From positions 21,356,103 through 21,420,102 of the forward strand of contig NC_087072.1 of assembly GCF_026151205.1 (NCBI RefSeq): a stretch of 64,000 nucleotides of DNA, in the 5' to 3' direction. This stretch comes from Bolinopsis microptera (lineage: Eukaryota; Ctenophora; Tentaculata; Lobata; Bolinopsidae). Numbering within the stretch: the first letter of the stretch is position 1; each line of letters starts with the position of its first letter. The notes beneath the pieces were generated by a model, which did not search any database, was not told the DNA's origin, and was given only the letters and a program-made list of their open reading frames with translations. Of the stretch, positions 1,951 to 64,000 are shown in pieces. The translations under genes and the position numbers were made by a program.

Positions 1951-4900
1951 CAGAATATAATATACACATAATATAACAATTACCCTATATAAAAATTCAA
2001 TATAAATGCAATAGAAAACTACATAAAATTTATAAACACCCTTTAAGTAAGCCAGTTTAAAGAACTGGCTCCAAATTTATATCTAATTCTTCTATTTTTA
2101 CTGCACTACTACTTTTTAACCCTCTCTCTCCTCTAAGAGCTATGACTGTTGTTCTCAAAAGGTCAAATCTTACTCTCTTCCTAATAAATGTCATTGCCTC
2201 ACTATATCGTTGGCCTGATTTCCTAGAAAGTTTTTCCGCTAATTTCTTGAAGAACTTATTAGCTTCCCTTCCCATACCCCCAGTGGTTGATAGGACTATC
2301 GGTGTAAACGTCCCATGTTCCACTTCTACAATCCTTTTATTGTATAAATTCTTTTTCTGTCTCTCGTGGCTATTGTACATAGTGGTTGGAGATCCTAGAG
2401 CCTTATTGGAAGGAGCTTGAGCATGAAATACTCTTACATCTAAAAATGCCCTTTCCAATGGGTTCCATACACTCCTAGCACTAACATCTAATCTAGCTCC
2501 ATCTGCTTTGTTGGCCCCTGCAGGAAGTTCTCTCCCGTTGACAGGAATGAGGAGAGGTTCAGTGGTAACATCTTTACAGCCAGCAGTTTCTAAAAGCTCT
2601 GCTATCACATCCCTCAATGAGTTGTGGCGAAGAGATACATATGACATATCCACCCCTTTTGCATATTAATGAGTGGTTAATTGAGTTGTCACCTCCACAT
2701 ACACATTTTCTTGCAGCATCTTTTATCCCAAAGTTGTACCTTAGGGCTAGGGCATCATTGAATTCTTGCTTGTTGAGACAGAATCCGAATGATTTGAGCG
2801 GGAGTGACGAAAGCCAGGAACTTGCCCCTTTCTCTGATGTAAGATCTAATTGCAATTTCTGGGATTCATTCAGGTCATTTGTAACCTCTTCTTTTCTCTC
2901 CTTGAAAAACTCTTCCCTTGATTTTCGGATTTCAGTCTTGATCTCTTCTAGTTTTTCCTGATCATCAAAAAAATCTTGGTGCTGGTTGTATATTGCTTCT
3001 GTAAGATCTAATGTTACTTTGCAGGAATACTCGTACTCTAGATCAGACATCAAACTGAGATCGTATATATACCAAGACCCCCTTCATTGACTGGTAATGC
3101 AAAGAGTTTTCTACTGGTTTGGTCGGTTCCAAACGACCTGTCCAATATTGCTGGTATAAAGGATTCTTGAATTTTGTATTCTAGTCTCCTGAGGTGTTGA
3201 CTGATACCAGGTGTTGTTCGACATACATAATTCCATCTTTTAGATAGCCCATAGTTGAACGCAGAATAAGCTGCCTGAGGTTCCCTCTTGGCAATATCTG
3301 CCAGATCTTCGATATCGTTAATCCATTCATCAACTTTACTATCTAAAAACGTTTTTGTCCCCTCCTCAGTTCCAATGAATGATCCAAGATATCTGTGTCC
3401 AACCCCTGATATTTGTAAATCTGGAAACATTTTTTCTGCTTTTTCTTTACAGTGTGGTTTAACAATGAGCCATGTTTTGGCTGGCTTGGGAGAATAGCCA
3501 AACAGTGGCCCGGTTTCATTAAGTTTTTCCCACCATCTCAGAACCTCTTCTAGTTTTCCCCCTCCAGCTGCATCGTCTGCATACCATACCTGTTTCACTT
3601 TGCTTGTATCAGAAGTTGATTGTGCAACAGTTTGAACTAGAGGCATAAGGGAGCAAGAGTATTTTCCCATTGCACAATTATCTCCCTGGGTTACCCCTTC
3701 TTCACTTAGCAGTTCCTTGTCTGAGTTGGAGATAGAGAGTCTTGCTGGATTCCTGTATGTGTTTATGAGGTAAGTAGCAATCTCTGGGCAGATAAATTGT
3801 ATGTTGTGTAGGGCTGCGGTTCGGTTAAGTCTGTTGAATGCATTATCTGCATCTACTAAGATAATTGCTTCAGTTTCATCATCATTGAATATTCTCCTTA
3901 GGCCATGAACAGCAGCCTCTACTCCACCTGATAGCCCAGCGCATACTTGGATGGGAGCCGTTGCTCCAACCATATCAGATTGAAGGACTCTTGATATTGC
4001 TTTGCCAATAATGCGTCTTAGCACCTCCCCTATCCCCACAGGTCTCACTCCAGGTTTCTTATCAAGGGGTATTAATCGGCAAGCTGTGTAAGCTTCCAAA
4101 TGCTCTGGGATAACATGTTTGGTGCACAGTTTCCTGGCCATAGCTGCAATGTTCTCTGCCAACTGTTTTGATTTTGAGGAGAACTGTTTTGAGCAAAGAA
4201 TACGCTTCCAGCCATCTGCATCGAGACCCGATGGTCCAGCAGAACCACTCATTTTCCTGGCACACAACTCAATCAGATCTCCATCGATGTTTTCATAGAT
4301 GACATCCTCAACATTTTGCTTCGCACCAAGAAGTAAGGAACCCTTTCCCGCTGGTGTTGGAGGTGGATGTTTGTCTTTAAGAGTTTTCATTACGTCGGGG
4401 GTCACATCTAAGACTGATGTTGCCTGAGATCCTATCCATCTCATAGCATTTGATACTTTCCCTTGAAGCATTAGTCTGACAAATACTTTTTCTTTGTTCT
4501 CTTCTGTCTTCTTTCCCTTAGTGAGTCTCTTCTGAATTTCTATTCCTTCCCTAAGAAGTGATTGTAGGTCCCCATCTGTCCACCATTTCAGTCTCTTCTC
4601 CAAGTACTCAACATGCTTCTTTGTTTTAGATTTCTTTGATGGCTTTTGCAATAGAAGTGGGGGCATAACCATGAGCAACTTTATAGCAACTTCTTCCATT
4701 CCTGTACCATTGATGTAGTATCCTACAATCTTTGACATCTCTTCAATTAAACGTTTTCCCGACTTCCCAGATGGAATTTTAAAGAGATTTATTTTCCACT
4801 TGATTGTCTCCGAATAGGCATCATTTACAGCCTTTATTATATCATCTCCCTTCAACGAATTACCCCAACGACAGTTTTCGATGTTACTAGTAGGTGTTGC

Positions 4901-5459
4901 TGGAGTTGGAATAGATGGTTGTATACTTTCTTCGACCTGTATCCTTTCTTCGACCTGTCTCCTCAGAACTCGAATAGCTTCGGTGATGGGGTTGTCTTCG
5001 TCTTCCTCTTCGTTGCTCTTCTTCTCTTTGCTACATCTTTGACATGACCACTCAGAATCTTCATTTTCCGATAGGTCTTTAAACTCCAACTCAGACAGTC
5101 CACTACAAGCGCTATGGAACTATCGACCACACATCCCCTCACATAGAATACAGTCGTACATGACTTCCTTTGAACAATATCCACAGATATCAGCTATATT
5201 TTCAATTCGCTTTACTACTCTGGACCTAGTGTCCATTTTTCTAGTGTCCGGCATTCCAACCCAAAAACAGGTACCACTACTGTTGCCGAGTCGGTTACCA
5301 GCAGAAACTGAAGCTTACCGCTGTCAGTCCCTACTGGATACGGGTCTCCTTAACAGTAGTGGACCCAAATTCGGGATCTGATGGAGTAATCTCAACACCA
5401 GAGGATTTTACAGATTATCACACAAAATCAAGTTAAGATGATATTTTATTAGGTTCTAT
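1951..5459 (-). mobile_element. Non-LTR retrotransposon, restriction-like endonuclease type
   Basis: A 3,509-bp minus-strand unit is bounded by exact 16-bp direct repeats. It has about 205 bp of 5' leader before the first ATG at 5254, one degenerate ORF (2057-5254), and about 106 bp of AT-rich 3' tail without a poly-A run. The single ORF with the reverse transcriptase upstream of a CCHC knuckle and a PD-(D/E)XK-type endonuclease follows the layout of early-branching, RLE-bearing LINEs (the R2/R4/Dong/NeSL grade). The PHD finger at the N-terminus is an unusual addition. Identity of the flanking repeats suggests a fairly recent insertion, but the ORF already has one stop and two frameshifts. 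I cannot name the Repbase family. Confidence 0.8.
2057..5254 (-). pseudogene. PHD-RT-RLE retrotransposon polyprotein, degenerate
   Basis: Reading starts at ATG 5254. A PHD finger (C4HC3) spans codons 24-74: Cys24, 27, 35, 38, His47, Cys50, 71, 74. It is interrupted by TAG at 5120-5122 (codon 45). The reverse transcriptase follows, with motif RPVGIGEVLRRIIGK near 4010-4050, motif A LVDADNAFNRL near 3840-3860, a QGDN motif, and YADD at 3572-3583. The frame shifts near 3050 and continues at 2574-3053 with a C-x-C-x8-H-x3-C knuckle. It shifts again near 2640, where a 7-nt insertion sits, into 2057-2653. That part carries RHNSLRD, ARLDV and FLDVRVF (about 2426-2446), which I read as the catalytic core of a restriction-like endonuclease. 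RT and YADD are clear; the endonuclease assignment is by motif order and family knowledge. With three lesions the copy is unlikely to be autonomous. Confidence 0.8.
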
Positions 5460-10240: not shown

Positions 10241-10586
10241 TGACGGATTGTATTGTTTTTTACAATTATCTAGAGGAAGGGGTGCATGCAGCGATTTACA
10301 GGCTGCCCAATTGAGTACAAGAGTTGACAACTAAGTCACTAATTATAATGATCTGAGGATGCAGGGCATCATCCCCCTACACCACCAAAAAACGGCAAAA
10401 TCAAAATACCGCCCAATATCCTGTGTATTGACAACTGGGCTACTAAATCTCTCAGTATATACATCTCTATAACAAGTCCTACTCTAGAGCTAACAGTCTG
10501 GGTATCTTCTTATCTTCTCACCCGCGCGCTACATTTCCACACTATCTTGCACATCCTCTTAGAGGTGATCTGAAGAACAGCTCACT

Positions 10587-10610
10587 GTCACGTGATCCTG
10601 ATCACGTGAC
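10587..10610. repeat. Perfect palindrome with paired E-boxes
   Basis: GTCACGTGATC and its complement GATCACGTGAC are separated by CT. Each arm holds a TCACGTGA-type E-box. It lies 26 bp past the stop codon of the hAT-derived gene, so in that transcript it could form a 10-bp hairpin with a 4-nt loop. It could equally be a double protein-binding site. Confidence 0.5.
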
Positions 10611-10635
10611 AGAGCTACTGGGTCCGTGACTCCGC

Positions 10636-10834
10636 TCACCAGAGTGACGAGTTCACGTTTAAGAAGAAGAGTCTCTCGAGCTCCTGCAGCGAGCTGCACT
10701 GCTGGAACGAGTTCACGGACACTGTCCACTCGAGGAAGACCTTGTCTACAGGAGGCGGACAGGCTGGTATAGAGCACAGGTAGTAGGCTAACTGGGCCAG
10801 ACACCGGTACGTGCCACACTTCTCTTGCCAGTAT
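10636..10834 (-). CDS. hAT-derived gene, exon 12 (dimerisation domain)
   Basis: Acceptor taccag|ATACTGG joins to give RYWQEKCGTYRCLAQLAYYL, followed by VDKVFLEW and NVNSSLW, then TGA at 10636-10638. This follows the C-terminal hAT dimerisation pattern (YP-LA-LA, S-ER-FS, N-LW) in degenerate form. Confidence 0.85.
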
Positions 10835-13800
10835 CTGGTAAAGGGATTGGGTTAACATTTACCTCGCCTAGCTTTATCTTAAATCCGTTTAAAAAAATCA
10901 AAGATAAAATGGAGATTGCAGTCCCGAATCAACCTGAAACGAATGACAGAATCGTAATTAATCATTAAGTAGCTAATTAACTCTGACTCACCTAAACGGA
11001 CACTCGCAGTCTAGCAGAAGCTGGTCTCTGACGAAATCGTTGAACTCGACAAGAAGAGCACTGCTGGGTTTGACGTCCTTGTAATCGTTCTTCTCTAGAA
11101 ATGCAAACAGTTTTCTTCGCTTTGTTGCTTGTTCGTTCGCCTGAAATATTATCTCGGTTTAATTCTAGACATTCAGTCGCCAGCCAACAAAAGTTAGATA
11201 ACGGGGACTTGGTCTCAACTTCCAGCAGGGTACAGTTAACGAAGTCATTGGTATTCAACTTTCAGGTTGCGTGATCTTGAGATTAAACTCTGATTGTTTA
11301 AAATTAATTTTAAATTTGCGAATCTTAGCAACAATGGTTTAAAAGGATGCATTAAATCGGTTTCAAATTTTTAGATTTTAATCCAGGGTACAAAGAGTGC
11401 CACGTTCTCGGTGACGATAATTAAATTATACCGTCTAAACATGATCTAAATTCTGACACTTATTTAATTTCAGATAAACGAAATCATGTCATAATTCGTT
11501 TAGCTTTGAGAAATTTGTATCCAGTGCACGTGTTTGAGAGGTCGAATAAACAGGTTACACGACTAACCTTAGAGTCATTGACGTTCTCATCGGCCTTGTA
11601 ATAGTTGGTGGAAGGAGATGGGTTACTGATCCTGAGTTCCTGGGCCAGTTCCTCCAACTTAGACTGGACAGCGGACTCTTCCTGACTGGTCCTGCACCAC
11701 TTCATCTTGAAGCGGGGATCAAGCGCTGCTGCTTCCTGAGGGGAATTTCAGTTAGAACCAAATCAGCCAACCTCTGAGCAGGTAATTTAATCTAATTCCC
11801 AGACTTATACTGTGATTAAACTCCATAAATACTCATTCCCGGACACGTGTAAATTAGCGGTGCGTGCGGCTGTAGCACCAGACGACCGTAAAATACCGAT
11901 AATAAAGGGGCTTCGTTCGACAGAATGAGACGTGAACTTATCGAAGGTTTCGGCGACCCAGCCTACGAAATCGCTTCACAGTTGAAAGACTTTATAATTG
12001 GCACAGACGACAGTGGTATTAAAACCGTACCTGATAGTATTTCTGTTTCAGGAGGGGAGTAAGGTGTTTCTGGAGGGCAGTATTGAGGTTAACAACCACA
12101 TCCCCCAAGTGAGTAGGCTTCATCTCTCTCAGCAGCTGGTCCAGGGACAGGATGCTCGGTACTACTATTCCAACACTTGGTGACGTATCACTTGAGATCA
12201 GATTGTATACCTGTAACAATTCAGGGTTAGCGAGGGTCGCGGAGACGGTTCGCATACCGAAACTTTAATTTTCATCTCTAACGGAAAGTTTTCATATTAC
12301 GTTCTACTCATTGTATTATATATATATATCGATTGTGTTACTTATTGAAGGTGATCTGTGAATATCGCCCGATTGACGGGCAGTAATGACATATGGTTAG
12401 GGTGGACAGGTGAAAAGACTAGAAAGGAAACGCGAATAGGACATGTGGTCTGTGTAGTGAGAATGTCTGCAGTCAGCCAACGTTTTAACAGTGAATATCT
12501 CTTTTAAAAGCCAGATTAGATGTAATCAGAGTAACTATTGGGAAGAGGGCGAACACTTAGTTATTCGTTACAAGGCTGTTTTTAAGACAGACTTGTTGAC
12601 CACAATATATTACGAATAATGTCCGTCGCTAGTTTTTAAACAAAGCAGTGCGGAAGGTAACTATGGTTTAACACAAACTTGGAAAATAATAATACCATTT
12701 AGATTACTACAAAAGAACTATGATGACCTTTGTCAACAGTTTAATATTTGGACAGTTTAATATTTATTAGTTCAATAATTATGATACCTTTAATAAATTG
12801 GTGCCCCGAAGGTCCTTGCTAGCCGATGAGCCAATAAATTATCCATAGTTTACAGTCCGAATACAAAAGATCCCGTGTCTATATTAATGTCAAGCAAGGC
12901 TTGAAGTTGGCACTAATTATAGACCGCAAACCAAAGCAAATTTTCATTAACATTCTCTAAGCCACTCTCCAACTCAGGATCAAATTTGCCGATATTTTGC
13001 CGAAGATCTGTGACACTGACAGTCGTTGCTACTGGACAAGAATAAGACAATGAGCGAGGTAAAACAATTGCTTGGACTTCACATTTTATCTGAAGCTAGT
13101 TGACAGTGACAGGTGTCACGCGGTAAAATAAACGGTAAACATAATTACTGGGTCATCTACCCCGTCTTATTCAAACTTTTTAAGACTATGATCTAATAGG
13201 CAGGAGGGAGGCATTGTGGCTAGACACTTGTCTGAACCGACCTTTACAATAAGTGGTGTGAAGTACAATAACAATATATAATAATATGCCTAGTGAAACG
13301 TGATGTGAGGTGCCAGCTTTGTAGCCTTACCTCTTCAAAGGGCTCCAGAATGTCTATCAGCTCCACAGCCAATGAGAGGTCTCGTAAGATACTGATGTTG
13401 TGAGCCGAGAAGGGAGAATTCAGGACCGTCTCTGTCTTTATATCCTTCCCAGGTGAGATACTGCTGGTTGGGCTGACGTTCATGTTACTTGGAGGACTCA
13501 GACTGCTCAAAGAGCCGTTCAGCAAACCTTTAGTCAGACCACTAGTGAGTCCGTTCAAAGTAGAGTTCAGTCCATTCATCCCACCTTTCAATCCGTTGAG
13601 AGACGAGTTGAGAGATGAGTTGAGAGATGTGTTGAGGCCGTTACTTAGACCGTTAGCTAGGCAGGTTGGGATACCATTGCTGAGAGAAGTAGGTAAACCA
13701 TTGCTAGAGGAGGTGACAGTCTGCTAGCTAGACTCATGTTTGGTATCACGCTAGGAAAACTTCCTGACAGTCCATTGGTCAGGTTTGTAGGGAGCCCGTT

Positions 13801-16800
13801 AGCTAGAGAGACTGGGAGCCCGTTAGCTAGAGAAGCGGGAATTCCGTTGGTAAGAGAAGTTGGGAATGCATTGGCAAGTGGAGAAGTAAGTCCACCACTG
13901 AGGGAAGTAATGATGCCATTAGTGAGAGAGGAGTTAAGAGAGTTGTTGATGGAGGTGTTAATGTTGGCGCTGAGGGAGGTAGCGATGCCACTGTTCAGAG
14001 TAGAGGTTATACCATTACTCAGTGAGTTAGTGATGGTGGTCGAGTGGTTACTGTTGTTAACACTGGTCGTCATCAGATTAGCTTCTGTCTTCAGAGAGAC
14101 AACATCCTTGTTATTGTTGATGAACACTGAGGAGAAATCATAGACTATTAATTTAGAATAAAGGTTAAATGTTTTAATCCATGTTCAAAATTCATTTGGT
14201 TGACGGATATTCGGAAGTCAGTGACGGTTGACGAAGTTTTTACCACACTTACATCGCCCGAGTATAGCTACTGTACAGTTTAACGAAGAGCTTAGCGTTA
14301 CAAATTCTAGAAGGTCTCATTATAATATTATATAAAACTTGTTATAATATTTTAACTTTGAATATTCAATTTATTTACCTCTGAGTTTGGAAAGGACTTG
14401 CAACCAGAAGGGAGTGAATAGTGGTCCATCTTGACTCTGTTGGTTCACAGTAGCACATCTTTCGTCAAGAAGGCGGGTCAGCTTGGGATTGTTCAGTGCT
14501 TGGTGGATAACCTGAACAATTGAAAATAAAGCCTTCTGTCTTTGTGTCAGGGGACTAAAGAGTTAATACAATTAGCCATTATCACCCCCAAAGAACGCTT
14601 GTTTTTGGCTTAATAACACAGAACTCGCTTTGTTGTGAGAAGAAAGAATTATTGTTTGTTGTTAGTACCTTGGTGATAACGTAAGCGAAGCTGGAGTCAG
14701 TCTGTACTGGGTCAGATCCCTCGCCATCCGAAGACGTGGCCTCATTGTCTGCCTTAGTGGTGCTGTCCAACCTGCGATAGAGCAAACCCATAATAACACA
14801 ATGTGATAGTTAGGGAACTAGAGAGGACTGTGAAAATAATAGAACAGAGCTAAATTTGTAACTTATCCAGTCCACGACACGTACTTTAGTACTTATGAGG
14901 TAGTTGTTGCCATGGGAACAAAAACAAATATTTACTAACAATAGTAATTCTTAAAATAGTCTTGATACAAACAACAAAGAATAGGGCGAATAAAAAAGTT
15001 CAACTTACTTGGAATTTCTGGTGAAGTCTTCAAGCGAGAGTCTGTTGACCTTCTCGTAGTAAATCTTGTTCGTGATCCCGTAAACATGCTTGGTCTGCTC
15101 TACAAGATTCTCCCACTCCATTCCAGGCGATATCACGTACACAGCCAGGAGATGATGTTTTAACTCCCAGTATACACTGCAGAGATATTGATACCGTTAC
15201 TATCGAATTCTTCTTGTAAATCAGTACGAATAAGGACAGTTTGTGATACTTCAGGCTCAAGTTTACTTCAGGGTTACTTCAGGGTTAAGTTCAAGAATCA
15301 CGTGAGATAAGAATGCCTGATAACGTTGCCATATTCCATGAAAATGATTTTTAAGAGAAGTTTTAGAGATTACCGTGAATGTATATCACATGAAGAACCC
15401 ACCTTAAGTAGTAAGCAGTGACGGCAACAAAGCAGTTGGATATAACCGATATCTGCAGGTTCACCACAGGTACCAGGGATAGTTGAGAGATGATGGAGTC
15501 TTTGACGTGCTCGTATGCTGGAGAATCAGGGGTTAAGAGATCTATCATATCTATCACTTAGTATCAACAAGATTAAATTTACTGTATTCCGCCGCTCTTT
15601 GAGCTTCAGACAGACTTTACTAAGACGAAAATAGAAAGTGTGACGAGATACGCAATTACCTAGATTATATTAATTGTGATATCCTTGATATCATCATTTT
15701 CCGGCCATAAAAATTGAGTCAACCTAACCCGGAAACAGTCACAATAGTTGGAAATGGAATGCGAACGTGTTTTCTGGAACCTAGACAGGAATTTAGAGAT
15801 TTGTTTATCTACCAAGCACCTACCCGAGGGTATGAGAGTATCTCTGATTTGAGTTGCAGTGGGTAGCCCAAAGAAAGGATGCATAGCTCTGATGAGATTC
15901 CTGAACCCCTTCCTGTTGATGACAGAAGCAGGCTGGATGTCCATAACAAGGTAGTTTAGAACAGATCTCATGATAGCGACCTGTCTGTCTGCATCTGTCT
16001 GTCCCATGTTAGTCAGGGAGGCCAGGCTGGTCGGGGTCAAGCCCTCGTGTTTCAGAGGGTTACTCAGGAACTCTGCTTTAGGCACCTGTGGAGATATCAT
16101 AAGTTTAGAGATCAAGTATTTCGGTATCTTTCCTAAGTAGTACTCGTTCTACGAGTATGGTTGTATCAGTGGGAGTATTTTTACATTGTGCATCTGATTT
16201 ACAGGGCCACGTTATAGACAATATAAATGACCTGCCCTAGTTTCGATCCAATCTACTTTATTATTGCTCTCTATCCGAGATACTTTCTACTGGTTTAGTT
16301 TCGTTTATAGGAGACAGGAGTACTATAATGTCCTTGTCCTTCAATATCAGGATTTTTTAAATGAGGTCCATTAAGCAGGCTTAGTTATCCTGGTCCACAG
16401 AGCAATTATATTTAGACTTAACCAGTTGAACAAGGCACATCATACGAGGTTCCCTCTCATTAAATGCTTCTTATTTGACGTTATTCCTCCCTTCACCAAA
16501 CAACGATCCTAAATATCAGTTCCGAATAATGACATTAGCCTGGATGACGAAGATTATTGCTGATGATAGCGTTTTAGTCCGCTTAATGACCACGACCTTC
16601 ATTTAGTTGGATGTGAAGAGCGGAGTTCCGGAGGTTATTAGAAATCATTATTGCGGATCAGACTGGCCTATTAGGAGACAAGCAGCTCATTGTATCGCTT
16701 CCACTACTTAATTTTCATTAACCCGATCCCTTATCAAATAATACTATCGGTTTAGAGCGCTTTATTTCCGATAAGTTAGTTATTGTGAGCAATTAGGCCG

Positions 16801-18224
16801 CTCAGACAGAATTGTCTGACTCCATTAACCGGAGGGTAATACAGAAGACTAATCCTCCACTTATCTACTCACTTGAAACATTAACAGTCACCAAACTAAT
16901 GATTGTTTACATTACAACCCCACACGTGTGCGGTGAGCCTTGCACGCTCCATCTCAACTAATCTAATAATCACTGTTTATTGAGGGCATTTAGCTTGGAC
17001 AATAGGCCAGCACCGATCAATCATTAACAAATACAGCGATTATATTGGTGACCAGCAGGCAGTGAGGAGCTTATTTACCAATGTTTGGAGGATGTTACTA
17101 CTAGTTAGGGGGATAATGTATCCAGAGATAGTATATCGGTAGCTTGCTATCTTCCTCCTCACAGCCAAGAAGGAGGCACAATTCTTAACTTTCTCACAAC
17201 GTGCCGCCAAATTGGAGGTTCACTTCCTCCCACCAGGACAGAGACTGGACATTAACCAGTACGGTTAAATAAACTCACATATTCCCACAATTAGTATATC
17301 AACGACTTGTTTACCAATATTGGCCTGGTTAATGATTGGAAAGCGTCTTCGTGGCCACTACTTCTCAATAACAAACCACTACATTTTTAACCAGCCCAAT
17401 GGTTTTCATACTGTGTGAAAATGGGAGGACGACTAATAGAATTTCTGAGGCCATTTGTAATGCGTCTACTTAAAACTACTTAAACCGCACTGACCAAAAC
17501 TTAGTTCGAACTTATGGGAAAGTTTGACGAAGGTCATCGCATTGAAGGCAAACCAGGGGATAATTATATGGTTTATTGATTTGTTGAAAACCACCGACCT
17601 TAACGAAAAGTCCAGGCATAACGGTTTGGAAATCGATTATATTTATAACAATGAAGTAATCAACCACAGAAGGAAACCACCAAAAAGCCGTCTTATAACT
17701 TTAATAAAACCAAATAAACACGACTTTAAAATGAAATCCAAGTTCAAAGAAATTAACTGAAACCGACCTGAGCTGCGATGGAAGTAAGGTAGTTCCGTCC
17801 ATATGCAGGGAGCATGGAGGTTCCTTGATGTCGAGCCAGGAAGGAGGTGGCTTTCTCCGCACGCTCCGCCTTCTTACGCGCCCAATCGTGCAACAGCTCA
17901 GGATGCACGTGCTGAAAGTTTGGGAGTTAGCATTCAAAATATATTGGAATCATTGAATTGAAAGATTTGAACAATTTTAAAACATAAAAAAGTATAATAT
18001 GTTATTGAAATCCTTGGGTTCTGAAAAATATATAAGGATAAAGTTGAAACCTTGAGATGAGTGATAAAGTTGCTGTTTACACTGGCTGTTCCTTTGTAGT
18101 CTCGCTGACATATCTTACACCGTCTGATGGTCCTCTTCTTTCCGTCAACGTACTCCTCGCGAACGAGATCAAAATATTTGTGTTCTATCTTTGCATCCAT
18201 TCCGTATTTGTGCTCTAAGTCCAT
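10636..18224 (-). CDS. hAT-transposase-derived protein with BED finger (12 exons)
   Basis: Coding exons, minus strand: 18051-18224, 17768-17911, 15824-16085, 15403-15517, 15009-15176, 14669-14771, 14379-14511, 13331-14126, 12031-12210, 11568-11735, 10992-11140, 10636-10834. All junctions are GT-AG and phases match throughout; the sum is 2,591 nt, about 863 residues if one base lost in exon 8 is allowed for. Order: BED zinc finger (Cys36, Cys39, His56, His61), hAT-type helical segment (GFRNLIRAMHPFF), RNase-H-like core, a low-complexity insertion of about 265 residues, the hallmark AALDPRFK, and a C-terminal dimerisation segment (YRCLAQLAYYL, NVNSSLW). Active hAT transposases use two Asp (near TxDxW and xTDNxxN) and a Glu; at the first two places I see VNLQISVI and NKIYYEKVN, so both Asp appear lost. 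No flanking transposon ends are obvious. I infer a domesticated, probably DNA-binding nuclear protein. A frameshift in exon 8 leaves pseudogene status open. Confidence 0.8.
10992..11140 (-). CDS. hAT-derived gene, exon 11
   Basis: Acceptor tttcag|GCGAAC, donor TTTAG|gtgagt (phase 2). Linker to the dimerisation domain; ends DCECPF. Confidence 0.8.
11568..11735 (-). CDS. hAT-derived gene, exon 10
   Basis: Acceptor cctcag|GAAGCA, donor AAG|gttagt; phase 0. It contains EAAALDPRFKMKW, the most diagnostic hAT signature (A-x-LDPR-F-K). Confidence 0.9.
12031..12210 (-). CDS. hAT-derived gene, exon 9
   Basis: Acceptor ctgcaggt context (AG|GTATAC), donor CAG|gtacgg; 60 codons in phase 0. SVGIVVPSILSLDQLLREM matches the VLP-I-L helix typical of the hAT core. 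Confidence 0.85.
13331..14126 (-). CDS. hAT-derived gene, exon 8 (NG-repeat insertion, frameshift)
   Basis: Acceptor cctcag|TGTTCA, donor GAAGAG|gtaagg. It encodes about 265 residues, mostly short units of the type SLxNGLPxSLANG and SLNSSLNSSLNG, then a conserved end ILEPFEE that resumes the hAT core. The frame open from 14126 ends at a TAG near 13668, whereas the repeat and the conserved end continue in another frame. The switch must fall near 13720-13735. The length (796 nt) is one short of what the flanking phases need, consistent with a single missing base. No plausible short intron resolves it. Confidence 0.75.
14379..14511 (-). CDS. hAT-derived gene, exon 7
   Basis: Acceptor gttcag|GTTATC, donor AGAG|gtaaat (phase 1). 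44 codons, including ALNNPKLTRLLDERC, a helix-like segment. Confidence 0.75.
14669..14771 (-). CDS. hAT-derived gene, exon 6
   Basis: Acceptor tcgcag|GTTGGA, donor AAG|gtacta (phase 0). Acidic and Ser/Thr-rich, probably an exposed linker. Confidence 0.75.
15009..15176 (-). CDS. hAT-derived gene, exon 5
   Basis: Acceptor ctgcag|TGTATA, donor CCAA|gtaagt. WENLVEQTKHVYGITNKI aligns by pattern with the helix before the second catalytic Asp. The Asp-Asn motif itself is replaced by YYEKVNRLS. Confidence 0.8.
15403..15517 (-). CDS. hAT-derived gene, exon 4
   Basis: Acceptor ctccag|CATACG, donor TTAAG|gtgggt. It corresponds to the first core strands, where an active enzyme has TxDxW. Here the segment reads VVNLQISVISNCFVAVTAYY, without an Asp. 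Confidence 0.8.
15824..16085 (-). CDS. hAT-derived gene, exon 3
   Basis: Acceptor ccacag|GTGCC, donor TCGG|gtaggt (phase 1). It encodes MDIQPASVINRKGFRNLI and following residues, the conserved segment before the catalytic core of hAT transposases. Confidence 0.85.
16086..17767 (-). other. Intron 2 of hAT-derived gene (1.68 kb)
   Basis: This is the largest intron of the gene. No coding exon or repeat is recognisable in it. It contains AT-rich stretches, a CACACGTGTG E-box near 16922 and many TAATTA-like motifs. Confidence 0.6.
17768..17911 (-). CDS. hAT-derived gene, exon 2
   Basis: Acceptor tttcag|CACGTG, donor CAG|gtcggt, 48 codons in phase 0. HVHPELLHDW supplies the zinc-binding His; the rest is basic and helical. 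Confidence 0.8.
18051..18224 (-). CDS. hAT-derived gene, exon 1 (BED finger)
   Basis: The ATG at 18224 opens 58 codons and the donor is AAG|gtttca (phase 0). It encodes most of the BED finger, CKIC...HLK, whose last His comes from the next exon. A possible acceptor (ctcaag) four bases before the ATG allows an upstream non-coding exon. Confidence 0.8.
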
Positions 18225-25192: not shown

Positions 25193-28040
<2,848 letters not shown>

Positions 28041-29732
28041 AGGATTAATGAGTATGGAGTATGGAGTATGGAGTATGGAGTATGGAGTATGGAGTATGGA
28101 GTATGGATTATGGAGTATGGAGTATGGAGTATGGAGTATGGATTATGGAGTATGGAGTATGGAGTATGGAGTATGGAGTATGGATTATGGAGTATGGAGT
28201 ATGGAGTATGGAGTATGGAGTATGGATTATGGAGTATGGAGTATGGAGTGTGGAGTGTGGAGTGTGGAGTGTGGAGTGTGGAGTGTGGAGTATGGAGTAT
28301 GGAGTATGGAGTATGGAGTATGGAGTATGGAGTATGGAGTATGGATTATGGAGTATGGAGTATGGAGTATGGAGTATGGATTATGGAGTATGGAGTATGG
28401 AGTATGGAGTATGGATTATGGAGTATGGAGTATGGAGTATGGATTATGGAGTATGGAGTATGGAGTATGGATTATGGAGTATGGAGTATGGAGTATGGAT
28501 TATGGAGTATGGAGTATGGAGTATGGAGTATGGATTATGGAGTATGGAGTATGGAGTATGGATTATGGAGTATGGAGTATGGATTATGGAGTATGGAGTA
28601 TGGAGTATGGAGTATGGAGTATGGAGTATGGAGTATGGATTATGGAGTATGGAGTATGGAGTATGGATTATGGAGTATGGAGTATGGATTATGGATTATG
28701 GAGTATGGAGTATGGATTATGGAGTATGGAGTATGGATTATGGAGTATGGAGTATGGATTATGGAGTATGGAGTATGGAGTATGGATTATGGAGTATGGA
28801 GTATGGAGTATGGATTATGGAGTATGGAGTATGGATTATGGAGTATGGAGTATGGAGTATGGATTATGGAGTATGGAGTATGGAGTATGGATTATGGAGT
28901 ATGGAGTATGGAGTATGGATTATGGAGTATGGAGTATGGAGTATGGAGTATGGAGTATGGAGTATGGATTATGGAGTATGGAGTATGGATTATGGAGTAT
29001 GGAGTATGGATTATGGAGTATGGATTATGGAGTATGGAGTATGGAGTATGGATTATGGAGTATGGAGTATGGAGTATGGAGTATGGAGTATGGATTATGG
29101 AGTATGGAGTATGGAGTATGGAGTATGGATTATGGAGTATGGAGTATGGAGTATGGATTATGGAGTATGGAGTATGGATTATGGAGTATGGAGTATGGAT
29201 TATGGAGTATGGATTATGGAGTATGGAGTATGGAGTATGGAGTATGGATTATGGAGTATGGATTATGGAGTATGGAGTATGGAGTATGGATTATGGAGTA
29301 TGGAGTATGGAGTATGGATTATGGAGTATGGAGTATGGAGTATGGAGTATGGAGTATGGATTATGGAGTATGGAGTATGGAGTATGGAGTATGGAGTATG
29401 GATTATGGAGTATGGAGTATGGAGTATGGAGTATGGAGTATGGAGTATGGAGTATGGATTATGGAGTATGGAGTATGGATTATGGAGTATGGAGTATGGA
29501 GTATGGAGTATGGATTATGGAGTATGGAGTATGGAGTATGGATTATGGAGTATGGAGTATGGAGTATGGAGTATGGATTATGGAGTATGGAGTATGGAGT
29601 ATGGAGTATGGATTATGGATTATGGAGTATGGAGTATGGAGTATGGATTATGGAGTATGGAGTATGGAGTATGGAGTATGGAGTATGGAGTATGGAGTAT
29701 GGAGTATGGAGTATGGAGTATGGAGTATGGAG
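28041..29732 (+). repeat. 7-bp tandem repeat array, 1.69 kb
   Basis: About 240 copies of GTATGGA. The variant TTATGGA is interspersed every 2-7 units and a block of GTGTGGA lies near 28246-28290. As 7 is not divisible by 3 and the unit has no stop in any phase, all three plus-strand frames stay open for about 570 codons and spell repeats of MEYGVWS. I see no reason to regard these as protein-coding. Confidence 0.95.
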
Positions 29733-32700
29733 TTTTGCCGAACAACCAACTGGACGAATGGTTCAGTGTTGAGGAACGCACCAAAATTATGAACTTTATA
29801 GAGCTCAAAGTCTAGAACCGAACACCAAACAAAAACCTTGTAAAAATGCAGACTGAATTAAACGGATTGATTTTCAAGATTATACAGTCTAATTCGCTAT
29901 AAGGGGTCGGTTCGTAATGCCAAAAAACTGCGAACAATGCGATTTGACAAATCTAAAAAACACAGAAACTAATATGAAGGTTTGCCCTATGAGGCGTTCA
30001 AAACAGGAGGGAAGATATCCGGAAGCTTGCTCACTTAACAGTAATGTAATTATTGGTTACCCTAATTGAAAAATTCATCCCGCCCGCGGCTGATGAGGTT
30101 TTTGTCAGTGTGATCTTGCATGCAGTGCTCTAGTGTTCTAAGGGTGTGTCGTACACCAGATACTTGGGTCATGTGTACCCTTAATCAGGCCTGTTTAATC
30201 AACAATTAAAATAATGTACCATCACCAGCAATCTCAATTATCCATAATTAGGTAGGGCCAGGGGGCACGAAATTAGCGAGTACCCGCGAATTGTACTTGT
30301 AGTGACCAACGTGGCCAGCACCCACAAATTACGTGATTTTATCGAGAAGAGCGCCCGAGAATCAGTTAATCTAAGAGACAATGCGAAAACAACTATCTTG
30401 AAATCGGATATATCAGAAAAATGAATTATAAGGGGCATGCTCAAAGCGATGGTAATTTTGTCAGAAGGTTAATCATGTCGAAATTAGCATTAGAACGCCA
30501 AAACCTGAAATAGGCAAATCATCCTTTGTTAAAGGTCTGTATTGGCAGAAACATCAGATGATACCAGCAAAATTGTAATTATTTGCGACAATGAAGCTCG
30601 TGGAGCGGAGCAACTAAATATTAGTAATCTACTGGCTTTGAAATTATGTAGCTGATCTCACGAGGAGAGCAGGGCTCCTTTGTGGGGGACCGGGAGACTG
30701 GCCAGCTAAAATACAGCGATAACCAAGTGTAGGGTTTGTTTCGGTTACAAGCACTCGTTCCGCAAAACGTTAAATTTACAGCAGACAGCAGACATATGGT
30801 TTAGTGTTTGAACCTTAATAAAATACATAACTTAATAGCAGCATATCCCAAGGAATTAAAGCAGCGGCCGGGCTCTGATAGGTTGGTTTATGTCACGTGA
30901 TCTGATTCAAATCCTCCCATGGGTCAGAGGTTCGTGGGAGGTTGGAACAATGTACAGTTAGCAGATTAACTTGCCTTATGAATGCTAGTTACTCTATTAA
31001 ATGCCATTACAATGTGTCATAAAACGCTTGCTGCACACAGCAGAGCGAAGGGCTGTAACTATAACGGATACACGCGACGTTGAATTGAAAACTAACCGGG
31101 ATTACTGGAGAGAGCTGTGAAAGATAAACTATGACTTGTGCCTATCTCCGACTACCTCCATTAACTATAGTGGAGTCCTCTGGAGTTACATTTAATATAG
31201 CTGGAGACCTCTGGAGAGTTACTTAATCCGCGTCAAATGCAAGCTGGGCGTTCTAAACAGAAGCGAAATGAGTGTTCTAATGATCTTATAGTAGGTGACA
31301 AAGAGCTAGACAGGTATTCAGGGTATTTGGGGTCCGTGGCTATGAAAGGGTGAGTAGCAAGGCCAGAGAACAAAAATGGTCAGACTACGGACTTGCAATC
31401 AGCTGAAAGGAACCACAAACAGGTAGCCATCATGTTATTGCAGACGCGCGAATAATCTGCAAAACCACAGATTGCACGTGCCAAGATGATGGCATAATGG
31501 AGAGAAAATCAATCGAGTAGGCGGTAGCAAGCTGTGCCAATTATCAAGTATTAGCCGGCTAGATTGTGTCAAACCCCTCGATCATGAACGGAAAAACAAA
31601 GAGGTCGGGCTATATAATTGTATCGAAATGCAGAAATAATTGTCGGTCCCGTGCGGGCAATTAACGAGTGCGTGAAAATCCTGCAGGATGGCAGAAACAG
31701 GACAAGCCAGCAGGGAAGCTGCCAGGTGCACTTCAACATTACCCTGATTTATTGTGTCAGCAAATATTATACCTCCTCCCACGTGACATACCTTTATTCT
31801 GATGCAGTGCTCCCACGTGCGGCTAACCGTTTAAAAAGTGTCCACATGTACGCATCTTTCCTTGCTCTTGAATCTAGCAATCCGCCGAAAAATCTCACGT
31901 TAATGGTGCCCTGGGGCCCGTTTGCCCCGCCACTACCTTAACCTACATAACCAGACCAACAACACCAAATCCTAAATATTTTACGATAATTGATCGGAAG
32001 AAAGCTGCAAAAATTCACCGATAAATCCTCTATTGATTACTAGTCAAAGAAGATATAAAATCAAATGCAGGATACAATGTAAGTAGCACAGTCTCTACCA
32101 TCAATCAGCAATCAGGGAGGATCTCTGTCAAGCCAATTTAAACACAGGAATCCAGGGTGATGTAAACTGCGGCTCAATAGTTCCGAGACTTTTTTCATGA
32201 GGTATTCCTGGGTACCAATCGATATGGAACATACAGCGTATAATCAGAAGAGGGATCAACGCTCAGTGAACTATGGGACAGCAAATGAGTAATCATCTAG
32301 AACGCGAACTAACCGTGCAGGACTACAAGTGTTCTCATTCACACAGTCCACATAAGTACTAGTTCCCTGGCCTTCGTTCCCAAATTAGCTAATAGCTATT
32401 TTATTTGATTGATACAAGTGCCAGTAAAATGGACTTTCGGGTTTAACACAACAAACCCTGGGAAGGGACTCTCAAACAAATACAACGTCCAAGAAACAGA
32501 TTAAAGTAGAGGGTGTTAAACTGAGCGTAGTTAATTACCGCGCTGACAAAATCAATTTACCCTCCGTGAGAACACCCTTACTGACACTCAATCTAACTGC
32601 CTTATCAAACAAACACGATTTTATTCGTTCTCAACGAATAATATTTAACGTAAATTGGTGGCAGGAATTTAAAAGATAAACGAACAAACACACGTCCGAG

Positions 32701-60502: not shown

Positions 60503-63500
60503 ATGTACAATGTATGGCCCCAAAGGTTTTGCTCTATTACGGGTAAACCTAGGATGCTGCAGATTCAACTCTGTACATTCAGACCGTCTGTGCGTGGTGA
60601 AGAGCCACATCCTGCTCGAGGTGGGGCTGCATGCAACTTCAGCGATGGAGTTGTAACTGAACACAGCGGATCTAGGGGTGCACCCCCGAAAAAAAGCCGG
60701 GCATCCTCAGAACAAGCTCGTGATGATGGTGATTTGGGTTAATGAAGATGTAACAGATTCCGGAACTATGGGAGCACCATCTGTCATCTTTCCGTTTTAT
60801 TTACTGTATGTGGGAACATCTACTGATGAAGTAGCTATCAAGAGAGCCATTCCAGTGGCGCAGGTGGCTCACGTGTCACATAGCCAACAGAAAAGAAACA
60901 TGATGAATAGTTCTTACAGCACTAGGGTATCAGCCCCTACTTTTGTTTCTGGACGTGAAGGTGGTAATGATTTCACCAACTTAAATCCGAATGGAAGGTT
61001 GGTGAATGATGAGCCTAATCAACCTGAAACACCCAACATAAACGAAAACAACAAAAAAAGTTTATTTTCATGTACCGACATAACCTGGGTAGGCACTCTT
61101 AACACTAGAACGATAAGAACTGCTCAGAGGAAACTGGAGATGGTACATCTTTTCGAGAAGAGTGGAGCAGAGATTGTAGGTATCCAAGAGCACAGGATAG
61201 TCCATGAAGAGCCTGTCAAAGTAGAGAGAGTTGGCAAGAGCAGCTATCTAATTACTTCATCAGCTACTAGGAATCGGGCCCAGGCAGCAGTGGGCGGAGT
61301 GGGATTCATCCTAACTAGCAAGGCATTTGACGCAACTACGGAGATAACACCAGTAACGGAGAGAATCCTTAAGATATCTCTAAATGGTAATCCTAAACCA
61401 ACCTTCGTCTGTGTCTACGGACCTACGGAGGCAGATAGTGTAGAAGCAGCAGAGAAGTTTCATACCGATCTAAGGTGTGCAGTCTCACAGATCCCTGCTC
61501 ACAACTTCTTGGAGGTGATTGGGGATTTTAACGCTCACCTTTCAAAGAGGGACGAGAATGACTTTGGTTGGTATTTCCATGAGAGAACCAACAGAAATGG
61601 GGAGCTGCTTCGGGATACTGCCCTGGAATGTAATCTGGAGATTACAAACACCAGGTTCAGAAAGAAGCGGGGTAAGATGTGGACTCACCTATCGGATGGA
61701 ACCCTGAATAAGTCTCAGTTAGACTTTATTCTAGTGAGGAAGAAGTGGAGGAACAGTGTCAAAAATACTGAAGTCTACAGCTTCTTTAGTACACTGGGTA
61801 CTGATCATAGACTTGTTTTGTCTAAGATCAAGCTATCTCTTCGACGAGCAAAAAAGCAACCCAAGAAAACCTGGTATAATTGGGGAGCACTTAAATCGGA
61901 TGAAGACCTACAGAAGAGATATGCTGTAGAAGTCAAGAATCGGTACTCTGCTTTATGCGAGCAAACCGATGAAAGTGAGGTTACGGAACTGTATGGGCAT
62001 TTTGTTGATGCGATTGCTGATACCAACAAAGCCATACTGCCTAAGAGAGAAAAGAAGAGACGTGACGATTTCGCGGGTGATCAGCGAGTTCAAAGCGTGC
62101 GTACAGCCTTGCAGCAAGCAGAGACTGTCTATCACCGGGATCCTAGTGAAGACAGTCGACTGTCTGTTAAGCTACTAAAAACTGAACTGGATCAGGTGTA
62201 CCAGGACATCTTTGAAGAAGATCTAGTTGCCAAGGTTAGAAGGGTCGAAATGGCTGCAGACAGATGCAAAAACAAAGAAAGTTGGAATGTCATAAATGAG
62301 ATAACTGGCAGGAAGGCCAAGGGGGCAACTCAAATAAGGGGCAACGGAGCCGAAGAAAGGAAGAAAAATTGGCTTGGGCATTTCACGAATCTGTTAGGGA
62401 GTATACCGGATGTGGAAAACGAGCATCCTAGGATCGAGACTCAATTTGAAGGACTCAACATCAGTACAGAACCTTTTACTGTGGATGAGCTTAAAGCTGC
62501 TAAACACAGGATAAAAGAAGGTAAAACACCAGGTGATGACGGCATACCACCTGAAGTCCTCAAAAGATGCGACCTGGATGAAATCGTGCTGTCCTTCTGC
62601 AACAAAGCCCTGACAGATGGTATTGCGCCAGATCAGTGGAGGATAAGTAACATCATCCCGGTTCCCAAAAAGGGAGACTTGACCAACCCTGGAAACTGGA
62701 GGGGGATATCTTTGACTTCTCTCGTAGCTAAGACTCTTAATAGAATGGTGCTTAATAGGATCCAGCCGGCTATAGAGGGGGTACTTAGGGACACTCAGAA
62801 TGGTTTTCGGGAAGGACGGTCCACTACTAGTCACATCTTGGCACTCAGAAGGATTCTAGAGGGGGCTAGACAGAGAAATTTACCGGTAGCTATGGTGTTT
62901 GTTGATTTTAAGAAGGCCTTTGATTCACTTCACCGGGGAATTTTGATGCAAATACTAAAGGCCTATGGAATACCGGACAGTATTGTAGATATCATTAATC
63001 TTCTCTATGTCAACACGAAGGGCAAAGTTATAACACCAGATGGGGATACCGAGCTATTTGATATCCTGGCAGGAGTTCTTCAAGGGGATACATTAGCACC
63101 ATACTTGTTCATTATAGCCCTTGACTATTGCATGAGACAAGCCTTAAGCAAGCATCCTGAAATAGGATTTACCATTAAGCCTTATCGGAGTAGGAGAGTC
63201 AAGGCGGAGAAGATAACAGACACTGGTTTTGCAGATGACATTGCTCTGATAGCAGATACTGTAAAGGAGGCAGAGATGCTGATGCTAGAGGTAGAAAGAG
63301 TTGCTGCTACAGTGGGACTTAAAATGAATGAAGGGAAAACCAAATTCATTACTCAGAACATCGAGAACCCTGATACCATCAAGTCCCTGGGTAACAACAC
63401 AATAGAGCACGTGGAAGACTTTACCTACCTTGGTTCTAGAATCAGAGACAGTGAGAGCGATATCAGAGTTAGGAAAGGAAGAGCATGGGGAGCATGCCAC

Positions 63501-64000
63501 ACTCTCAAAAAACTTTGGAAATCTAACCTTAGAAAGTCTATCAAGACCAGAGTGTTCACAGCACTAGTCGAGTCGGTGCTTCTATACGGTTCTGAGATTT
63601 GGACTATGACGAAAAGGCTGGAGAAGATGGTTGATGGTTGCTATACACGAATGCTAAGAATGGCCCTTAACATCAATCAATATCGAGACCATGTCAGCAA
63701 CCACAGTCTGTACGGTGATCTTCCTAAAGTCAGCTCCAAGATAACCCAACGAAGGCTCAGACTTGCAGGTCATGCTCACCGACATCCGGAGCTGACACTG
63801 AACAAACTGATCCTCTGGAAGCCGAGTCATGGGCATACTAACAGGGGCGACCTTACCTAACACTACTAGATAACCTAAAAGCAGATACTGGGCTGAAATC
63901 AGTAGATGAGATAGCTAGACTGATGGAGGACAGAAAGCTGTGGAGAACTGTTGTCAATGGATCTCGGGAATACTACCCGCCTTAAGTCAAGTAAGTCAGT
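60503..64000 (+). mobile_element. APE-type LINE, truncated by window end
   Basis: The element contains the long ORF at 60678. Its 5' border is not defined; the frame at 60503-60742 may be part of its 5' region. The tail follows 63985 but the 3' end is outside the window. Target duplications therefore cannot be checked. It lies downstream of exon 5 of the EXD1-like gene and could sit in its next intron. Confidence 0.75.
60678..63985 (+). CDS. LINE ORF: AP-endonuclease and reverse transcriptase
   Basis: Uninterrupted for 1,060 codons to a stop at 63858-63860. One missing base near 63845 would restore the family's C-terminal tail (LLDNLKAD, EIARLMEDRKLWR) to a TAA at 63983-63985. The AP-like endonuclease comes first (GIQEHR, VYGPTE, VIGDFNAHL, SQLDFILV, GTDHRLV), with the catalytic Glu, Asp, Asn and His motifs present. 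The reverse transcriptase follows (VFVDFKKAFDSL, LQGDTLAPYLF, GFADDIALIA). After it come the YLGS segment and a GHAHRHPE...LWKPSHG tail typical of RTE-like and related invertebrate LINEs. The N-terminal about 120 residues are unremarkable. It nicks target DNA and copies its RNA there. Nearly intact, so recently active. The true start may be a later ATG. Confidence 0.85.

Follow-up and report, generated by a model that had tools for sequence, protein, structure and literature searches.

Does a gene built like a hAT transposase, found in a ctenophore genome among many hAT elements, belong to the host, or is it still part of a transposon, whether active or decaying? We examined this question for a gene on the minus strand of a 64,000-nt stretch of DNA (hereafter the window), which an earlier note, made from the letters of the sequence, had described as a domesticated transposase with a DNA-binding role. 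We analysed its exon structure, its domains and active site, its copy number and flanks, and a diverged second gene on the same chromosome.

Gene structure and the reading frame of exon 8

The gene spans positions 18224-10636 and consists of 12 exons (Table 1). All 11 introns, which range from 139 to 1682 nt, begin with GT and end with AG, and the phases are compatible at all 11 exon junctions, so that the consistent splice signals and phases originally claimed for the gene were confirmed. The exons have a G+C content of 48.8% versus 37.1% for the introns. The gene is predicted to encode a protein of about 860 residues if a frame slip in exon 8 is disregarded, and apart from this slip approximately 2.6 kb of exon sequence is open. 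Because a pyrimidine tract ending in AG is found upstream of the ATG, a further 5' exon or a trans-spliced leader may exist. On the other side of the gene, 23 bases 3' of the stop codon, there is a 28-base palindrome (10585-10612) with 13-base arms, a 2-base centre and two TCACGTGA sites. This palindrome was considered as a repeat end and ruled out, since a genome search allowing up to two mismatches located it just once.

Table 1. Exons of the gene and other features of the window.
Feature	Position	Strand	Remarks
Exon 1	18051..18224	-	ATG and first part of BED finger; zf-BED E 1.1e-5
Zinc-ligand codons in exon 1	C36 18119-18117; C39 18110-18108; H56 18059-18057	-	kept in sister gene
Exon 2	17768..17911	-	final zinc ligand H61 (17905-17903); basic stretch RKKAER, conserved
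Exon 3	15824..16085	-	
Exon 4	15403..15517	-	Asn in first catalytic Asp column (alignments)
Exon 5	15009..15176	-	Asp codon 15028-15026 (SLEDFTRN) aligned with second catalytic Asp
Exon 6	14669..14771	-	low-complexity acidic linker
Exon 7	14379..14511	-	part of insertion region
Exon 8	13331..14126	-	Asn/Gly/Leu/Ser repeat of about 200 residues, slip near 13,720, then conserved hAT sequence again
Exon 9	12031..12210	-	insertion region, clear Hermes match (VPSIL)
Exon 10	11568..11735	-	LDPRF motif
Exon 11	10992..11140	-	KRRKLF; C-terminal region begins
Exon 12	10636..10834	-	dimerisation region and stop; Asp for catalytic Glu (codon 10746-10744)
Minisatellite GAGTATG	28050..29733		7-bp unit in about 240 copies with 94% matches; strands extremely asymmetric (GC skew of 0.85 over 28001-30000); three plus frames all open, more than 580 residues
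AG dinucleotide run	25908..26167		260 bases
Open frames	2057..5119 and 60657..63860	one set per strand	resemble non-LTR retrotransposon reverse transcriptases (by eye)
Open frame, 153 residues	59620..60081	-	cysteine-rich repeats resembling LDL-receptor class A (by eye)

The slip in exon 8 had gone unreported in the earlier model. At 796 nt the exon is one base off the length that the frame requires. The frame that is open in its first half differs from the one open in its second, and the two meet inside the Asn/Gly/Leu/Ser repeat; 24-base and 12-base tandem repeats were called within the exon. The slip could stem from an indel introduced in sequencing or assembly, from a genuine allele or from a small intron. 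There are 71 frame-restoring choices of GT and AG inside the exon, with lengths of 25-399 nt, and none of the 25 shortest stands out. A one-base indel is a simpler account than a small intron. The DNA of exon 8 was found once in the assembly, which thus offers no second copy for comparison. According to PMC10232365, which also mentions PacBio Iso-Seq libraries for the species it covers, the published Bolinopsis assembly was produced with wtdbg, and Illumina reads were used to polish it. If the assembly used here is that one, a one-base error is plausible, because the slip falls in a repeat of a sequence that was assembled and polished in this way.

Descent from a hAT transposase

The N-terminal BED finger was recovered in a Pfam check, in which zf-BED scored 25.8 bits (cut-off 20.6; E 1.1e-5), and the ligand pattern C-x2-C...H-x4-H is present. 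The LDPRF motif was also found where it had been described. Two further domains, hAT-like_RNase-H (15.4 bits, cut-off 27) and Dimer_Tnp_hAT (PF05699; 12.8 bits, cut-off 21.4), stayed under their thresholds. As to the dimerisation motifs named in the earlier note, the C-terminal stretch scores below the PF05699 cut-off and aligned to the Hermes transposase. In a phmmer search against solved structures the predicted protein matched Hermes with E 2.5e-6, and among the ten sequences listed the six other than Hermes were at E 0.24 or worse. A profile built from the gene and its sister gene, which is described below, matched Hermes with E 1.2e-11; both queries omitted most of the exon 8 repeat. The homology to Hermes spans the insertion and C-terminal regions. 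We regard descent of the gene from a hAT transposase as established.

The active site

Catalytic columns were read from MAFFT alignments of the gene and its sister with L053, a multi-copy hAT element of the same genome, and three further elements. Aligned to Hermes, L053 has D, D and E all in place, and through it we reached the columns of the Hermes residues that we take to be catalytic, namely D180, D248 and E572. In each of five such alignments, which draw on overlapping sets of sequences and do not count as independent tests, the first catalytic Asp column was occupied by Asn in the gene and by Thr in the sister, with no acidic residue within two columns in either. The second column held Asp in both genes, again in five of five, with an insertion of five or six residues in the gene at this point of the alignment. 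Because the region scores poorly with profiles (the best domain of a catalytic-region transposase profile reached 3.6 bits on the gene and 2.9 bits on the sister) and its placement rests on MAFFT, the assignment of the first two columns is uncertain, and we regard an Asp at the second catalytic position as probable. At the catalytic Glu column there is Asp in the gene (codon 10746-10744) and Gln in the sister. A TRW motif was absent from the gene protein, with the exon 8 repeat reduced, and from the sister protein.

As judged by alignment, the active-site triad appears to be broken, with Asn, Asp and Asp instead of D-D-E and with the second column uncertain. The claim that Asp is lacking at both of the first two catalytic positions was correct for the first, where Asn is found, but not for the second. 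Even so, it follows that the gene product is most likely catalytically dead, because the first Asp has been lost and the Glu replaced.

Copy number, flanks and the hAT elements of the genome

The genome contains at least 150 PF05699 domains (150 of 365 candidates were scored, and all 150 listed lay above the cut-off). A search of the genome with the gene protein gave 14 matches with E 0.01 or better, all 18 candidates having been scored; 12 of these are the gene's own exons and the other two belong to the sister. The gene is single-copy and forms no repeat family. In the 3 kb on either side of the gene, a scan for 10-14-base inverted repeats accompanied by 8-bp duplications gave no pair under any of three settings, where 20 Markov-generated flank pairs per setting gave means of 0-0.3. 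The scan found a pair in one of three hAT stretches used as controls (L053), and it missed the ends of L040 and L043, copies of one family for which the fetched stretches were possibly too short. Within this range, the reported absence of nearby terminal inverted repeats agrees with what we observed.

L053 itself has terminal inverted repeats and an 8-bp duplication, and further copies of it are present in the genome. Its family (L006-L009 and L011) is multi-copy, with DDE in place and an 8-bp duplication in one copy. Both L053 termini are common to L007, L008 and L011 and one is present in L009, and these four look like internal-deletion copies of the family. Among the relatives of L053 is a multi-copy hAT family in which two coding pieces, the same ones each time, lie about 220 bases apart in ten of ten paired copies, drawn from a list of 50 matches; L055 and L056 match nearly the whole query without this gap. 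The hAT elements of this genome thus seem to carry putative introns as well. Since they seem to, the multi-exon structure, which had been used to argue for a host gene, is a weak argument for domestication, and intron number was dropped as proof of it.

A diverged sister gene

The sister gene (L038/L039) lies on the plus strand of C1 at about 22,526,030-22,533,280, 1.15 Mb from the gene. Its exons number at least 11, and its layout matches that of the gene from the BED finger through to a C-terminal ...LW. The two proteins are 27% identical by MAFFT and 23% by BLASTP, and the gene has a bit score of 116 to the sister versus 31 to L053, the nearest hAT transposon found. All four zinc ligands are invariant between them. 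Of the three Pfam domains, the sister passes the cut-off for Dimer_Tnp_hAT (28.0) and falls short of it for zf-BED (16.0 against 20.6) and RNase-H (16.9). The exon 8 repeat of the gene is absent from the sister. The sister has a Thr/Asn-rich stretch after its BED finger, opposite a gap in the gene.

One of the 11 introns is exactly shared, lying inside the BED finger at the same place and in the same phase. One further intron, which is phase 0 in both genes, may correspond, and the other nine introns of the gene are unshared. Since one exact coincidence would be expected by chance with a probability of about 5% (a rough estimate), there is mild support for a common ancestor that already bore introns. 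That the diverged sister shares a chromosome with the gene points to an ancient duplication of a single domesticated gene as the origin of both.

Searching the genome with the sister protein (E up to 0.1) returned eight matches: six to itself, one to a fragment on C2 and one to an L053-type element. This query did not recover the gene, so searches of this kind miss relatives and more family members are possible. The C2 fragment (L052:4892-5023) is 70% identical to exon 8 of the sister over 44 columns, and tblastn with both proteins across 9.9 kb around it detected nothing beyond the fragment that would indicate a third member. A scan of viral contigs with the two-gene alignment gave 105 pattern matches, none of which was confirmed as a relative.

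Selection on the coding sequence and alternative explanations

In 470 aligned codons, counted after gap-free blocks of fewer than 20 columns had been dropped, identity between gene and sister at codon positions 1, 2 and 3 was 0.374, 0.519 and 0.302, versus 0.255, 0.280 and 0.259 for a shuffled-pair control, an upward bias being built into the test by aligning on protein. Third positions appear close to saturation and second positions kept, as under purifying selection, and we regard this pattern as supportive. Neither reduced coding sequence contains an internal stop, which is partly by construction because open exons were chosen.

If the gene were a dead relic, left by one old hAT insertion and with coding exons that had yet to decay, then a pseudogene of this kind might well contain a frame slip such as the one in exon 8, and the apparent introns of multi-copy hAT elements here would make its exon structure less exceptional. 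Neutral decay across a divergence of 23-27% identity, however, should leave many stops, whereas the exons are otherwise open over about 2.6 kb and joined across 11 GT-AG introns, and the similarity to the sister extends over the full length with second codon positions kept. The slip itself lies in a repeat, where a one-base error is plausible given the assembly history considered above. We therefore think it unlikely that the gene is a pseudogene.

Truncated P-element proteins act as repressors, and the gene could by analogy encode a host repressor of hAT elements, a dead protein that would bind the ends of related transposons or mix with active transposase and thereby block movement. Such a role would suit a protein in which the DNA-binding and oligomerisation parts are kept and the active site is broken, in a genome with many hAT copies, some of them with their termini kept. 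The nearest transposon family that we found scores only about 31 bits, though, and is too distant for shared sites or mixed oligomers to be assumed, which leaves this function improbable. It is hardly credible that the gene still encodes a working transposase, one with an unusual active site and belonging to an element of very low copy number, given the Asn in the first Asp column with no acidic residue within two columns, the missing TRW motif, the single copy and the 3-kb flanks devoid of inverted repeats with duplications, and despite the Asp aligned at the second catalytic position and the Asp at the Glu position.

The best explanation is that the gene is a host gene derived from a hAT transposase, present in single copy and serving DNA-binding regulation without cutting, and we consider this probable. 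It is favoured because the gene is single-copy in a hAT-rich genome, has a conserved full-length sister, has flanks in which the scan found no inverted repeats with 8-bp duplications, and retains its zinc ligands beside a broken active site. The earlier reading of the locus as a domesticated host gene with a DNA-binding role is accordingly retained without its intron argument; single copy and conservation carry the case. In a host protein of this type the BED finger would bind a specific DNA sequence and the C-terminal region would mediate formation of a dimer or higher oligomer. The protein would then regulate transcription or chromatin without DNA cutting, like ZBED/DREF-type proteins, and the Asn/Gly/Leu/Ser repeat of exon 8 could act as a flexible tether or effector segment. 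As a more tentative proposal, to which we would not yet commit, the gene and its sister may constitute an ancient family of DNA-binding proteins, derived from hAT and specific to ctenophores, that was domesticated once and then duplicated, that abandoned the triad, unlike vertebrate ZBEDs, and that now provides a lineage-specific regulator with the Asn/Gly-rich repeat as its effector segment.

Comparison with known systems

No report of the gene or the pair was found in the open-licence literature searched, and the gene is unnamed in passages of PMC10027918, PMC8097297, PMC3606216, PMC11797021, PMC10232365 and PMC12221973. The L053-type transposon resembles the gene in its BED-like N-terminus, its LDPRF and YWK...YP motifs and its dimerisation motifs, but it agrees with Hermes in D, D and E and carries an 8-bp duplication as well as terminal inverted repeats; its score to the gene is about 31 bits. 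The likeness to Hermes (PDB 2bw3, 4d1q, 8edg) consists of homology over the insertion and C-terminal regions; the gene differs in having Asn at the D180 column, Asp at E572 and no TRW, and D248 may be matched.

As a kind, hAT-derived host proteins are well known from the ZBED and CGGBP genes. Domestication of hAT elements has occurred many times in eukaryotes: in Yellan et al. 2021 (PMC8097297), CGGBP proteins are described as independent hAT domestications that gave rise to DNA-binding proteins in many eukaryotes, most of them with introns and/or truncated. The gene is like a CGGBP in being a hAT transposase apparently domesticated into a DNA-binding protein, but CGGBPs are defined by an N-terminal BED and Hermes DNA-binding parts, whereas the gene retains the full-length hAT layout. 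Comb jellies apparently share in this process. A survey of TE-derived factors in two ctenophores, PMC10027918, reports five of six TE-derived families from Pleurobrachia and gives FHY3 as not found in ctenophores; because FHY3 is the one family not found, a ZBED is implied in Pleurobrachia. We therefore rejected the description of our gene as the first ctenophore gene of the ZBED type.

The earlier note knew of no named gene with this architecture. The combination of BED finger, hAT core and dimerisation region is, however, the ZBED layout: in Hayward et al. 2013 (PMC3606216), vertebrate ZBEDs are hAT-derived host genes with a BED finger, a hAT core with insertion domain and a C-terminal dimerisation region, and they reportedly keep the DDE triad, the role of which is described as unknown. 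The gene shares this layout, and differs in having other residues in place of the first Asp and the Glu, in its probable ctenophore source, in its 12 exons and in its long Asn/Gly repeat. It may work like a ZBED, but it would not be one in the vertebrate sense, that of a jawed-vertebrate domestication with DDE kept, because its assembly fits a ctenophore and its triad appears to be broken. If orthologues span the ctenophores, the pair would test which parts of a transposase hosts keep for regulation. The broken triad is one contrast to the vertebrate proteins: a diverged pair of genes apparently without the catalytic triad stands against ZBEDs that, on the account in PMC3606216, have kept it.
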